A DNA stretch of 62,542 nt from Desulfovibrio sp. GTDB lineage: Bacteria; Desulfobacterota; Desulfovibrionia; Desulfovibrionales; Desulfovibrionaceae. Every line of letters starts with the position of its first letter. Positions within the stretch are counted from its first letter, which is position 1. The notes beneath the pieces are model-generated. The model did no database searches. It saw nothing but the letters and a program-made list of their open reading frames with translations, and was not told the origin of the DNA. Below, one piece after another: positions 36,327-48,827 of the stretch. Both the position numbers and the translations under genes were made by a program. The stretch is from assembly GCA_031287575.1 (NCBI GenBank), contig JAITSV010000049.1, forward strand, positions 1 through 62,542. The letters run 5' to 3'.

Positions 36327-36403
36327 CGGAACGTAGCGCAGCCTGGTAGCGCACCTGCCTTGGGAGCAGGGGGTCGCTGGTTCGAATCCAGTCGTTCCGA
36401 CCA
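36327..36403 (+). tRNA. tRNA-Pro (anticodon UGG)
   Basis: 77 bases with acceptor arms CGGAACG and CGTTCCG, D-arm GCGCAGCCTGGTAGCGC, anticodon stem CCTGC/GCAGG around loop CTTGGGA (anticodon TGG), T-loop GGTTCGAATCC and encoded CCA. It lies at the left boundary of the phage-derived region and is the probable integration site. Confidence 0.97.
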
Positions 36404-36924: not shown

Positions 36925-37215
36925 TCAGGCTGCCACCTTGGGCTTGGCCTGAAGCGAAACGCCCATGGCTCCGAGCAGTTTGACGATGGTCCCGTAGCGA
37001 GGTTGGGCACCAGGCGCGAGGGCCTTGTACAGACTCTCACGTCCGAGGCCTGCGTCCTTGGCAAGCTGGCTCATGCCATGGGCCTTGGCCACGTCGGCAA
37101 CCGCCGCAAGGAACACATCCGGGTTCGGGTCTTCGAGCGCTGCCGAAAGGTATTCGGCGATGGCTTCTTCGCTGTCGAGGAATTCGGCGGCGTCGAATCT
37201 GGCAATCTTAGTCAT
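36925..37215 (-). CDS. HigA-type addiction module antitoxin (orphan)
   Basis: 96 residues ending in a helix-turn-helix: ALEDPNPDVFLAAVADVAKAHGMSQLAKDAGLGRESLYKAL is the common core of putative addiction-module antidotes paired with Gp49/HigB-like toxins. It would bind its own promoter and a toxin. Its ATG overlaps the end of the toxin reading frame by eight bases, the normal toxin-antitoxin layout, but the toxin is truncated. This is therefore an unpaired antitoxin, possibly a phage-borne anti-addiction gene or simple remnant. Confidence 0.88.
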   Translation of the reverse strand: MTKIARFDAAEFLDSEEAIAEYLSAALEDPNPDVFLAAVADVAKAHGMSQLAKDAGLGRESLYKALAPGAQPRYGTIVKLLGAMGVSLQAKPKVAA

Positions 37216-37321
37216 GGCTATCCTCGAATTCCCGCGCCAGCTTCTTGGCAAGCACGATATCACGCTTCTGGCTAGACTTGTCGCCACCCGCGAGCAGCAG
37301 GTAGATCGTCTCGCCCGACAT
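37208..37321 (-). pseudogene. Truncated Gp49/HigB-like toxin
   Basis: The frame MSGETIYLLLAGGDKSSQKRDIVLAKKL matches only the C-terminal third of Gp49-like toxins (consensus LLLCGGDKSTQ..DI..AK). The upstream in-frame sequence is unrelated and soon enters AT-rich DNA, so the N-terminal part with the RNase core is lost. The frame overlaps the antitoxin start by eight bases. Confidence 0.75.
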
Positions 37322-37384
37322 AGCTGTGTCAGGTGAATGCTTTCTCTGTATACTCTCCCAGCGGTGCAAACCGACCCACATTTC

Positions 37385-38536
37385 TCAATTTTTATCAAAT
37401 GATGAACCTATTAGTCCCCAATCTCCAAAATACATTCTCGAATAGTCATAAGCAAATTCACTGCCATGCTCGAAAGAAGGATGCGCAATTTTGAGGAAAA
37501 ACGCCTTGCCTTCTTCATCTAACGAATTCCACCACTTTGGTTCAACGACAAAATTATCAGTATACGCGCATAGCATCCGAACGATCATCTCAGTCACTTG
37601 CGCTGAATTCGCTAAAGACAACTTTTCAAAGCACTTCCGATATACTTCGTCTGCCCCCTTATCCCACGAAAAAAGAGCTATCCCCTTGTCGTCATTTGCG
37701 AAGACATTCACACACAACAACGGAAACTTTTTTTCTGGACTCGATATGCGCTCCAGGCGGCCCGCTACAATGCGCAGAACACCAGACAGTGTACTTTGAA
37801 CAACATCTCCAAACGCATCTACAGACATTGCAAAAGCAGAGCATGCCATTACAGATGGAATTCTTAAGAATTCAAAAACACAATATGAATATTTTTCAAA
37901 AGCACCAGTTTTATACACCTCGCAAGCTTCATTCATAAAAAATTCCATATCTATCAAATCTTGTTCATTTCCAGCTATATACATATTCAAAAACATTTGC
38001 ACATTTCGCTGGAGATTAGCGTTCATACCTCTGTCAATCATTTTAAGCTGTTCTTTTTGCGATTCAATCGCAACCATCTTATCATAGTATTGCTTGCACA
38101 TAGATCTATAGTGAAGCCTAAACACGTCTTCATAACATTTTTCAAAATTCTTATTCTCAATTTTCAAAAAAAAATCCTGATCATGCTTCTTGCAAAAACC
38201 AAAAAAAGTTGATGCACTAGATACTCCTACCAACTTAAGACCAATCTCACCTTCGTTTTTAACAAGATCAGGGTAATCCTTTCTCACATAATAAACTTTC
38301 CCATCTTCAGAAATTTTTGAAAGACTTCCATTTTTTTGAACTGTATGCGATTGTATAATTTTATCACATTCGCCGTTTGGCTGCGGGTGCAAACACATCT
38401 TTCTCTTATTCATTATATTTAAAACATTTATAACATCTTGCATTCCAACAACGTCCTCATTAACACGATTAAGGTGGCATTTTTTGTATTTGATACCAGA
38501 ACCACACCAACACAAGTCGTTTCTTCCCAGCTTCAT
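37385..38536 (-). CDS. AT-rich SEC-C zinc-finger protein, putative defence gene
   Basis: 383 residues. The N-terminus has a SEC-C motif (GRNDLCWCGSGIKYKKCH). A second metal-site region follows with CLHPQPNGECDKIIQSHTVQ and, later, FFGFCKKHDQDFF, a treble-clef or HNH-like Cys/His pattern. The remaining 250 residues are helical and unrecognised. GGAGGGAG precedes the ATG, and a TATAAT-like element lies about 35 bases upstream of it. Base composition and codon use are strikingly AT-rich against all neighbours, a sign of recent transfer. SEC-C proteins of this type are often found in mobile islands; a defence role is inference. Confidence 0.75.
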   Translation of the reverse strand: MKLGRNDLCWCGSGIKYKKCHLNRVNEDVVGMQDVINVLNIMNKRKMCLHPQPNGECDKIIQSHTVQKNGSLSKISEDGKVYYVRKDYPDLVKNEGEIGLKLVGVSSASTFFGFCKKHDQDFFLKIENKNFEKCYEDVFRLHYRSMCKQYYDKMVAIESQKEQLKMIDRGMNANLQRNVQMFLNMYIAGNEQDLIDMEFFMNEACEVYKTGAFEKYSYCVFEFLRIPSVMACSAFAMSVDAFGDVVQSTLSGVLRIVAGRLERISSPEKKFPLLCVNVFANDDKGIALFSWDKGADEVYRKCFEKLSLANSAQVTEMIVRMLCAYTDNFVVEPKWWNSLDEEGKAFFLKIAHPSFEHGSEFAYDYSRMYFGDWGLIGSSFDKN

Positions 38537-38674
38537 TTCTCCCTCCTGCGGGTCTCTTAATTTTATCCCTTTATAAATATTATATAAACAAAAACAACAG
38601 GTAACCAGCCACGCCCACATATCACGCAATCACATAGAATCGCTGAATAACAACCCATACCCCATTCATCACCC

Positions 38675-38951
38675 TTGACTTCGCCGGGCGGTTACGACAC
38701 CTTGTCACAAGGTGCTCAACACACCTGTCAGTCCTAGGCGGCCATCACGCCCGTCAGCCGTGGTTTTTTTGCGCCCGTCATGCGCCATCGTTGCCCATGG
38801 CACGGTTGCATCTTTCCACGTACTTTTCTGCCGGGAGTGCGGCTAATACAATACCCGCAAGGGGAATACGCCCGCCGCCCTAGGACGGTGTTGAGCTCCC
38901 GGCAGTCTCTTTTCAGAGACTGCCAATCAACAACATTCCTAGGAGCCTTCC
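38675..38951 (+). promoter_or_regulatory. Structured leader A of the duplicated moron cassette
   Basis: TTGACT (38675-38680) is shared with leader B, though a matching -10 is less clear here. Within the leader: GGTG-CTCAACA-CACC hairpin (38711-38725); CACG-CCCGTCAGC-CGTG hairpin followed by seven Ts (38746-38770); a long-range ten-base stem CTGCCGGGAG (38828-38837) with CTCCCGGCAG (38896-38905); and a hairpin GGCAGTCTCT/AGAGACTGCC (38901-38924). The last two share GGCAG and exclude each other. AGGAG precedes the ATG. The same order occurs at 48103-48362. Confidence 0.7.
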
Positions 38952-39419
38952 ATGTCCCACACCCCTCTCATCTCCCCCGCCGTGGCGAGTCGGATCAGCG
39001 CCCTTGCGTCTGAACTGGACGACCTGGAGGTGCAGCTTGGCTATCTGGCCGACTACACCGAACCGGGCCCGCTGTTCGGGCTGTTGCGCTCGCTTCAGGA
39101 CAGCGCCGCCGAGTACAGCGGCAGCCTGTGCTCCACCCTTGACGACGAAGACGGCGACAACACGGTGCTTGGCGATGCCGGGCCGTACTTCGCGCCGTTC
39201 ACGCTGGGCACCATTGCCCGCCAGTTGTCCGCCGCGCCGGGCATGCTGGCCGAAGCGGGCAAGGACCGCCCGCGCGACGCCCGGCTGGCCCTTGAATGGC
39301 TGGGCCTGCGCATGCTGCAACTGTCCGACTCGGCCAACCGCATCGCGCGAACCGTGATGTCGGAACTGCCGCCCTGCCAGCCGCAGGCGCTGCCGCCCAT
39401 GGTGATTGCCTCGGCCTAG
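38952..39419 (+). CDS. Duplicated phage moron protein, copy A
   Basis: 155 residues, helical, soluble, no signal peptide. It is clearly paralogous to the product at 48363-48827. Shared blocks include MSHTPLI, SELDDLEVQ, EYSGSL, AGKDRPRD, LALEWLGLRM and ELPPCQP. It is transcribed against the phage late genes from its own leader and closed by its own terminator, the definition of a moron. I do not recognise the family. It might act in lysogeny maintenance, superinfection exclusion or host control. Confidence 0.85.
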   Translation: MSHTPLISPAVASRISALASELDDLEVQLGYLADYTEPGPLFGLLRSLQDSAAEYSGSLCSTLDDEDGDNTVLGDAGPYFAPFTLGTIARQLSAAPGMLAEAGKDRPRDARLALEWLGLRMLQLSDSANRIARTVMSELPPCQPQALPPMVIASA

Positions 39420-48102: not shown

Positions 48103-48362
48103 TTGACTTCCCCACCCGCTAGGGCTATCTGCCCTATAGGTGCTCAAAACACCCCGTCCAACAGCGGTTCCACGTCCCGTCAGCTCGTGGCTTTTTCATG
48201 CCCTTCGGGGTATGAGCATCTCCACGCATAGCTTTGCCGGGAGTGGCCGATATACAATACCCGCGAGGGGAAGTAGGTCGCCGCACTGTTGGGCGGTTTT
48301 GAGCTCCCGGCATCTTCCATTTTCGGAAGGTGCCCATCAAAACTCCCAACAGGAGCCTTCCC
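48103..48362 (+). promoter_or_regulatory. Structured leader B of the duplicated moron cassette
   Basis: Promoter TTGACT-N17-TATCTG (48103-48131), with a dyad TAGGGC-TATCT-GCCCTA over the -10. Then GGTG-CTCAAAA-CACC (48139-48153); CCACG...CGTGG followed by five Ts (48170-48196); the long-range stem TGCCGGGAG (48235-48243) with CTCCCGGCA (48304-48312); and the hairpin GGCATCTTCC/GGAAGGTGCC (48309-48334). Stems match leader A in position while the last hairpin differs in sequence but keeps pairing. AGGAG precedes the ATG. Confidence 0.72.
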
Positions 48363-48827
48363 ATGTCCCACACCCCTCTCATTGCCCCCGCCGTGGTCAG
48401 TCGCCTGCATGAACTGGTGTCCGAACTGGACGATCTGGAGGTGCAGTGCGGCTTCCTTGCCGACTACGCCGAACCGGGCCTGTTGCTCGGCCTGCTGCGC
48501 ACCTTGCAGGAAGACGTGGCCGAGTACAGCGGCAGCCTTTCCTCTACCCTTGACGACAGCGACGGCGAAAACTTCGTCCTTGGCCATGGCGCGTACTTCG
48601 TGCCCTATGCCCTTGGCACCATCGCCCGCCAGTTTGGCGCGGCTGGGGGCATGCTGGAGGCCGCGGGCAAGGACCGCCCGCGCGACACCCGCCTTGCCCT
48701 GGAATGGCTGGGCCTGCGCATGGCCCACCTGGGAACCACGGCAGGGTTCATCGCGGAAACCGTGATGGAAGAACTGCCCCCCTGCCAGCCGCCCGCACCG
48801 CAGGTGCTGGCCAGCGTCACCGCGTAG
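48363..48827 (+). CDS. Duplicated phage moron protein, copy B
   Basis: 154 residues, helical and soluble, roughly two-thirds identical by eye to copy A (38952-39419) along its whole length. The shared blocks are listed with copy A. The two copies differ mainly in the last 35 residues and around residues 70-85. It is in the same type of unit: own promoter, structured leader and terminator, antisense to the late genes. Retention of two diverged copies argues for function. Confidence 0.87.
   Translation: MSHTPLIAPAVVSRLHELVSELDDLEVQCGFLADYAEPGLLLGLLRTLQEDVAEYSGSLSSTLDDSDGENFVLGHGAYFVPYALGTIARQFGAAGGMLEAAGKDRPRDTRLALEWLGLRMAHLGTTAGFIAETVMEELPPCQPPAPQVLASVTA

Follow-up and report, generated by a model that had tools for sequence, protein, structure and literature searches.

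The two leaders duplicated in a Desulfovibrio prophage each very likely constitute a three-part antisense module resembling that of phage C4 RNA, a reading to which we assign a probability of roughly 85%. Judged from the DNA, both leaders of the window (the whole 62,542-nucleotide stretch that was analyzed) follow one order: a1-b1, terminator-like hairpin, sRNA-Xcc1 RNA, a2-b2 with the Shine-Dalgarno sequence, and gene (Table 1). The P3 loop of the RNA (b') and its joiner (a') are complementary both to a1b1 and to a2b2; across the compared copies this complementarity co-varies, and it is specific to each of the two in the window. Like the C4 RNA of phages, sRNA-Xcc1 as a family probably acts by antisense pairing: it would bind the start of the next gene, keeping that gene off, and also a matching upstream site.

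Table 1. Features of leaders A and B and the genes behind them.
Feature	Position	Strand	Basis
TTGACT, possible -35 box of leader A	38675..38680	+	by eye, weak
Upstream element, copy A (a1 hairpin, b1, terminator-like hairpin)	38699..38776	+	model R1, 45.5 bits, E 1.2e-7
a1b1 of copy A, upstream target copy (TCAACA...TCCTAGG), then CGG	38716..38738	+	motif search, duplex and fold calculations
CACG/CGTG hairpin with CCCGTCAGC loop and seven Ts, intrinsic-terminator-like	38746..38770	+	sequence and cross-copy comparison
sRNA-Xcc1 (RF02221), copy A; P1 = 38828-38837 with 38896-38905	38829..38912	+	77.4 bits, cut-off 53
Antisense part, copy A: P3 loop b' and joiner a'	38877..38895	+	pairing tests, motif search, duplex energies
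Local hairpin, copy A, 10 bp, has 38901-38905 in common with P1	38901..38924	+	folding
a2b2 target, copy A, running into Shine-Dalgarno AGGAG (38941-38945)	38927..38945	+	motif search, duplex energies, folding
Gene A, 155 aa; four helices predicted, forming two hairpins; no match to a known family	38952..39419	+	ORF, family searches, structure prediction
Upstream element, copy B (a1b1 48144-48164, terminator-like hairpin)	48127..48203	+	model R1, 43.8 bits, E 3e-7
sRNA-Xcc1 (RF02221), copy B	48235..48320	+	66.8 bits
Antisense part, copy B	48284..48304	+	motif search, duplex energies, folding
Local hairpin, copy B, start in common with P1 3' strand	48309..48334	+	folding
a2b2 target, copy B, running into Shine-Dalgarno AGGAG (48351-48355)	48337..48355	+	motif search, duplex energies, folding
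Gene B, 154 aa, paralogue of gene A (71-72% identical)	48363..48827	+	ORF, protein comparison

The leader core is sRNA-Xcc1

Both leader cores matched the Rfam covariance model for sRNA-Xcc1 (RF02221) over all 87 positions and above its gathering cut-off, and a search of the organism's own assembly (4.19 Mb in 84 contigs) with that model returned window copies A and B only. The initial annotation had put the leader forward as a candidate new RNA switch; this novelty is not supported, because the leader core is RF02221, and the long-range stem that it described is the P1 helix of that family. The Rfam entry covers the RNA core only, is typed as sRNA and belongs to no clan; the a1b1-terminator and a2b2 flanks lie outside the model. 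Capitals in its consensus mark the P2 part (AUACAA ... GGGGAA). The models for C4 (RF01695), c4-a1b1 (RF03163) and isrK (RF01394) gave no match in leaders A and B even at an E-value of 10, and in an Rfam search no known riboswitch class scored above its gathering score in either leader.

Further copies were collected by scanning for the core pattern, which gave at least 120 viral stretches and 69 stretches in a species-genome collection, and by searching class genomes with the RF02221 model, which matched in 71 of 297 (47 over the cut-off) and added 29 new loci. The exact core pattern, run over all loci, yielded 219 cores; 209 had P1 and enough sequence, and 136 were left once near-duplicates had been removed. 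An ORF of at least 40 aa with a Shine-Dalgarno sequence 20-160 nt after P1 was present in 116, the other 20 being left out of the start-site test, and 114 of these had enough upstream sequence. The 116 copies comprise the two of the window, 63 from viral contigs, 38 from genome contigs and 13 from the class genomes, where 16 of the 29 loci have the exact core and 13 were used in the tests. Because copies were found by the exact core pattern, deviating family members are absent from the sample; because the loci were chosen by that core, they cannot show conservation of the P2 core.

The RNA is complementary to the next gene's start and to an upstream site

The sequence of the P3 loop differs from copy to copy, and its complement sits at the start site of the next gene. 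When b' was compared with the start region (-30 to +6), a Watson-Crick run of at least 7 nt was found in 87 of the 116 copies as against 2.6% of swapped pairs, with 29 copies falling below that length. The observed sum of 796 was reached by none of 5000 random pairings, the best of which gave 532. A window ending at the Shine-Dalgarno sequence gave 77 of 116, with 1.7% of swapped pairs; the window was widened because it had missed b2 in some copies, where b2 lies between the Shine-Dalgarno sequence and the start codon. Pairing on the other side of the RNA was similarly frequent: b' found a run of at least 7 nt within the 150 nt upstream of P1 in 85 of 114 copies, at sites 37-136 nt before P1, versus 6.3% of swapped pairs and, in two control regions, 6 of 106 copies (-600 to -450) and 6 of 111 (within the ORF). 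Both the b1 and the b2 run reached 7 nt in 68 of 114 copies. The joiner behaves likewise in copies with b' pairing of at least 6 nt and a joiner of 6-16 nt, the only ones taken into this comparison; a run of at least 6 nt linked a' to a2 in 53 of 87 copies (swapped, 6.7%) and to a1 in 50 of 69 (swapped, 10.1%), values reached in 0 of 5000 permutations in each case.

In the window, the copy A loop CCUAGGA stands opposite UCCUAGG directly before the Shine-Dalgarno sequence, and in copy B CUGUUGGG stands opposite CCCAACAG. Exact searches of the organism's own genome with one gapped two-part pattern per copy found TCAACA-N(1-12)-TCCTAGG at exactly three sites, all in leader A (a1b1, the RNA in reverse, and a2b2), and TCAAAAC-N(1-12)-CCAACAG at exactly three sites, all in leader B; the reversed-pattern control gave none. 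Further targets in that genome carrying the exact two-part A or B motif were sought and none was found outside the motif's own leader.

Calculated energies agree with separate addresses for the isolated segments. At a2b2, cognate duplexes had -21.1 (A) and -23.0 kcal/mol (B) versus -10.4 and -10.6 kcal/mol for the crossed ones; at a1b1 the own duplexes had -26.5 and -28.6 kcal/mol versus -21.0 and -16.8 kcal/mol crossed. When the whole mature RNA was co-folded with the start region, RNA A gained only -1.8 kcal/mol on its own target, equal to RNA B on target A, while RNA B gained -9.2 kcal/mol on its own target and RNA A on target B 0.0. With the leaders, the whole mature RNA gave -9.1 own versus -4.8 crossed for A and -14.0 own versus -0.3 crossed for B (kcal/mol). 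Shine-Dalgarno accessibilities of the window copies showed no clear order between contexts.

Two Xanthomonas copies, L134 (5692-5774) and L138 (3932-4014), keep an upstream b1 and a T-rich hairpin; no b2 was found at their next ORF when b' was compared with -30 to +6, and they are candidates for an RNA whose linked target has been lost. A broader comparison, of the whole region after the P2 core with 100 nt downstream, was set aside: its own mean of 7.16 stood against 5.59 for swapped pairs, with the own pairing in the best 5% for only 34 of 136 copies, and these ranks were weak because complementarity common to all copies blurred them.

An upstream element ends in a terminator-like hairpin

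The leader had also been described as carrying a CACG-CGTG hairpin followed by seven Ts, like an attenuator. That hairpin is present in both copies; in leader A, CACG (38746-38749) and CGTG (38759-38762) flank CCCGTCAGC, and the Ts occupy 38764-38770. It belongs to a recurring upstream element that consists of the a1 hairpin, b1 followed by CGG, and the terminator-like hairpin. Such a hairpin occurs in 89 of 114 upstream regions, versus 184 of 1140 shuffles, and the 89 contain 39 distinct complementary arm pairs. CCGNNAG lies within the hairpin in 67 of the 89 and is found in 82 of the 114 upstream regions, which were not selected for it. In 44 of the 69 copies having both, b1 ends 5-8 nt before the hairpin.

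A model of this element, R1, was trained on 46 upstream sequences from loci L003-L190, with the window and the class loci left out. With it the element was found in both window leaders (Table 1); of the 29 held-out class loci, 27 gave it at E-values of 0.013 or less, R1 being mainly a sequence model and some viral training contigs possibly sharing a bacterial class with the held-out loci; the exceptions were L213, at an E-value of 0.26, and L206, with no match. The training set cannot show conservation of CCGNNAG because its sequences were chosen for CCGNNAG followed by Ts. Differences in loop length left RNAalifold with only three invariant pairs, and no covariation, on the upstream alignment A3; the case for a terminator accordingly depends on the hairpin counts (39 arm pairs in the 89 hairpins) and on model R1. 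At -3.4 kcal/mol the terminator stems are weak, and generic promoter and terminator scans reported neither signal on the + strand at the window leaders. The -35 box of leader A is rated weak because the promoter scan saw no sigma-70 consensus on the + strand.

Some R1 matches do not lie beside the RNA that defines the locus (L209, 706-781; L199, 103-175; L211, 1257-1306, the last weak at E 0.68), and these are perhaps further modules or orphan a1b1 RNAs. The terminator-like loop at 38750-38758 (CCCGNNAG) resembles the P2 hairpin of sRNA-Xcc1 copy A at 38853-38864 (ACCCGNNAGGGG). Over 22 bases the terminator-like stretch of leader A is identical to a phage P2 record (L228, 1501-1522), at an E-value of 0.3; this is perhaps only a similar terminator.

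Mutually exclusive stems as two probable states of one switch

The stems to which the initial annotation drew attention are real: a perfect 10-bp stem joins 38828-38837 (CTGCCGGGAG) to 38896-38905 (CTCCCGGCAG), a second perfect stem of 10 bp joins 38901-38910 to 38915-38924, and both require GGCAG at 38901-38905. The bistability of the leader and its duplication within one prophage likewise held, copy B having the same parts. Fold z-scores against dinucleotide shuffles were -3.95 for 38825-38956, -5.08 for 38695-38956 and -4.32 for copy B (48230-48367), and for each of these three stretches none of 200 shuffles was as stable.

Among homologues, P1 is formed by many pair types across the 116 copies, a count that leans towards P1 because P1 was located by best pairing. 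A stem of at least 6 bp reaching the P1 3' strand was found in 43 of 116 copies versus 11% of shuffles, and one of at least 7 bp in 28 of 116 versus 3.8%. Overlap between the local hairpin and P1 is thus enriched among the copies but is not general.

Precursors running from P1 to the start codon were predicted to be more stable in the antisense-closed form than with P1 enforced, at -53.4 versus -43.4 kcal/mol for A and -61.0 versus -47.8 kcal/mol for B. The best fold of these window precursors pairs a'b' with a2b2, places the local hairpin at the apex and leaves P1 open; the two stems therefore probably mark two states of one antisense switch. For the same stretch without the upstream part, the best fold over 114 copies keeps P1 in 76 and forms b':b2 in 33, so that the cis-closed form of the window copies is a minority one. 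When 150 nt of upstream sequence was included, the 114 leaders divided into 53 with b1:b', 33 with b':b2, 27 with P1 and one other; leader A is among those whose best fold contains a1b1:a'b'.

Antirepressors lie behind many other copies

Among the 114 downstream proteins, 54 matched phrog_245, which as one antirepressor family gives a lower bound for antirepressors, and Pfam matches (which may overlap) were to Bro-N in 31, Rha in 12, KilA-N in 11 and AntA in 8. Genes A and B match no antirepressor family in PHROG, Pfam or NCBIfam. A BLAST search of phage records listed 205, mostly weak Mycobacterium phage matches. Of seven phage records examined that match the RNA, four have the anti-repressor Ant as their next gene and one has a gene for a KilA-N protein there; the Smp131 match lies inside a CDS named anti-repressor, and the remaining record is unannotated.

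A Neisseria weixii locus (L187, 4610-5651) carries C4, sRNA-Xcc1, C4 and sRNA-Xcc1 in tandem on one strand before an antirepressor-like gene. The first C4 and the second sRNA-Xcc1 have targets both upstream and downstream, and the other two upstream only. Weak isrK and c4-a1b1 matches precede the C4 copies, and the C4 model gave no match at the two sRNA-Xcc1 places of this locus. By the same pairing test, a C4 element there has the same layout as sRNA-Xcc1.

Comparison with known systems and proposed mechanism

For the C4 RNA of phages P1 and P7, passages of PMC5320573 describe processing by RNase P, a b' loop that covers part of the ribosome-binding site, and binding of a' to a sequence upstream. 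Compared by eye, the consensus structures of C4 and sRNA-Xcc1 share P1, P2, a P3 with b' in a long loop, a single-stranded a' joiner, and the 3' strand of P1. In both window copies b' is complementary to the ribosome-binding site, as in C4, and a' is complementary to a stretch 5' of b2; both leaders also have an upstream a1b1 copy, as in C4 with c4-a1b1. Antirepressors often lie downstream in both families, genes A and B themselves matching no antirepressor family. The two RNAs differ in P2, which is a plain hairpin in C4 but has a large internal loop in sRNA-Xcc1. As far as pairing goes, then, the window elements would work like C4, with processing and repression being our extension from it.

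Two other phage systems offer models for the flanking parts. In the portion of PMC4825925 that deals with Salmonella Gifsy-1, IsrK (STnc1160) is a short terminated leader RNA that acts in trans on its own read-through mRNA, as shown experimentally; the shared elements are a promoter, a short terminated RNA and a read-through mRNA that contains both a processed RNA and an antirepressor-like gene. IsrK, however, works via a small upstream ORF and leads to AntQ, and its model had no match here; taking it as a model for a1b1 is an argument by analogy. The CI RNA of phage P4 with seqA and seqC, as outlined in the same source, is also a processed antisense RNA with complementary sites on both sides, but it acts by transcription termination on replication genes, and we liken it by description, not by sequence.

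We suggest that transcription of leader A starts near 38675 and that many transcripts would stop at the terminator-like hairpin, giving a short a1b1 RNA. Read-through transcripts would carry sRNA-Xcc1, which processing (presumably by RNase P, as for C4) would release. Once released, or else still in cis, this RNA would pair with a2b2, cover the start site and keep the phage gene off. The a1b1 RNA could compete for sRNA-Xcc1 as a decoy relieving repression, by analogy with IsrK of Gifsy-1; alternatively, a1b1 may be a site at which sRNA-Xcc1 favors termination, by analogy with P4. A formed P1 would correspond to an antisense RNA that is folded and free, and a formed local hairpin to the antisense sitting on the start site in cis.

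Other explanations have been weighed against these data. The initial annotation had favored control by a ligand, a protein or temperature, with sRNA-Xcc1 as the aptamer and the exchange between P1 and the local hairpin as the expression platform. The exclusive stems exist, and the capitals in the P2 part of the Rfam consensus are what an aptamer core might show. The variable part of the RNA, however, is a loop that co-varies with the Shine-Dalgarno region (b2) and the upstream copy (b1), which an aptamer leaves unexplained; only 43 of 116 copies clearly show the local hairpin overlapping P1, and what most often lies downstream is a family of antirepressors rather than a metabolic gene. We found no support for such control and regard it as extremely improbable. 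Attenuation purely in cis, with one molecule switching between P1, a1b1:a'b' and a'b':a2b2 and no free RNA, would account for the P1, b1:b' and b':b2 forms that the predicted folds of the 114 full leaders take; we consider it unlikely, because an RNA of about the size of sRNA-Xcc1 accumulates in Xanthomonas (end-mapping passage of PMC2996969) and in EHEC (table row of PMC5331693).

Parts of PMC2996969, PMC12189769 and PMC12444791 contain proposals that, in Xanthomonas and Xylella, sRNA-Xcc1 is mainly a trans regulator of host genes, and the Xanthomonas copies L134 and L138, which lack a clear b2, would suit such a role. The exact two-part motifs, on the other hand, occur nowhere in their own genome outside their own leader, and most copies of the RNA pair far better with their linked start site than with swapped ones, which makes this role very doubtful as the main one. 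We give equally little credence to an RNA-controlled toxin unit of a type I-like kind, in which genes A and B would be toxic and the RNA their antitoxin: its antisense logic is alike, and a section of PMC12444791 places SymE beside sRNA-Xcc1 in Xanthomonas cassettes, but neither A nor B matches a toxin or defense family in Pfam, NCBIfam or PADLOC, and antirepressors are the commonest family downstream. A C4-like antisense module is the reading that we retain.

sRNA-Xcc1 in the literature and wider implications

sRNA-Xcc1 was reportedly named as an integron-encoded RNA by Chen in 2011. In Xanthomonas campestris it is an 88-nt RNA, as established by Northern blotting and end mapping (results passage of PMC2996969), and a table row for EHEC in PMC5331693 gives it a first count of 40293, which we take for transcriptome reads. 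In a passage of the Xanthomonas integron paper it is noted to lie upstream of symE, and a divergent mechanism of regulation is suggested (PMC12444791). Partial texts of this kind report sRNA-Xcc1 in plant and other bacterial pathogens, in part as a virulence-linked trans-acting sRNA without an established target. Within such portions of the open-licence literature we found no established mechanism for sRNA-Xcc1, and one may have been stated elsewhere; the word 'antirepressor', in this spelling, is absent from the open-licence papers searched that name the RNA. PMC12189769 names both sRNA-Xcc1 and C4 antisense RNA, in passages that do not connect them, and PMC5331693, which names sRNA-Xcc1, also contains the terms bacteriophage, antisense RNA and ribosome binding site.

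If sRNA-Xcc1 is a C4-like module, the primary target of most copies could be read from their own sequence, which would provide a direct test for annotated members. RNA control of the C4/P4 type would then take in a second RNA fold and genes other than antirepressors, in this case two paralogous phage cargo genes, each with its own address. More tentatively, and at somewhat less than even odds in our estimation, sRNA-Xcc1 might be a second major C4-type class: a re-addressable three-part switch (a1b1, antisense, a2b2) whose spread has accompanied that of antirepressors, cargo genes and integron cassettes. Private addresses would allow several modules to work side by side in one prophage, the short terminated a1b1 RNA of a related phage, whether incoming or induced, could switch the gene on and so make the switch an RNA detector of self and non-self, and the reported virulence sRNAs would be phage-derived derivatives.

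Genes A and B and their prophage

The window carries a contractile-tail prophage, with matches on the - strand to major head, tail sheath, tape measure, baseplate, tail fiber, spanin and endolysin proteins. Also present are a repressor-like gene (36925-37398) and a tRNA-Pro (36327-36403), and genes A and B stand on the + strand amid - strand genes. The gene behind the leader had been taken for an uncharacterized phage gene, and so it appears: neither A nor B matches a family in PHROG, NCBIfam or PADLOC, and the single Pfam match of gene A is below its cut-off. Relatives are few: they were found at three loci in viral contigs and in 3 of 199 genomes of the bacterial family, this one included, one of them being a weak match (E 6.7e-4) in a 632-residue frame. 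The predicted structure of the gene A product has a mean pLDDT of 82 and was computed from only 2 sequences.

Several short proteins encoded behind sRNA-Xcc1 in related bacteria look like the gene A product by eye; a BLASTP comparison of the C-terminal half of the gene A product with one such short Desulfovibrionaceae protein detected no similarity. Beside leader A, the region 37385-38600 encodes a SEC-C motif protein and has a GC content of 36.8%, against 67.6% for the window; it looks like recent cargo near the end of the prophage.
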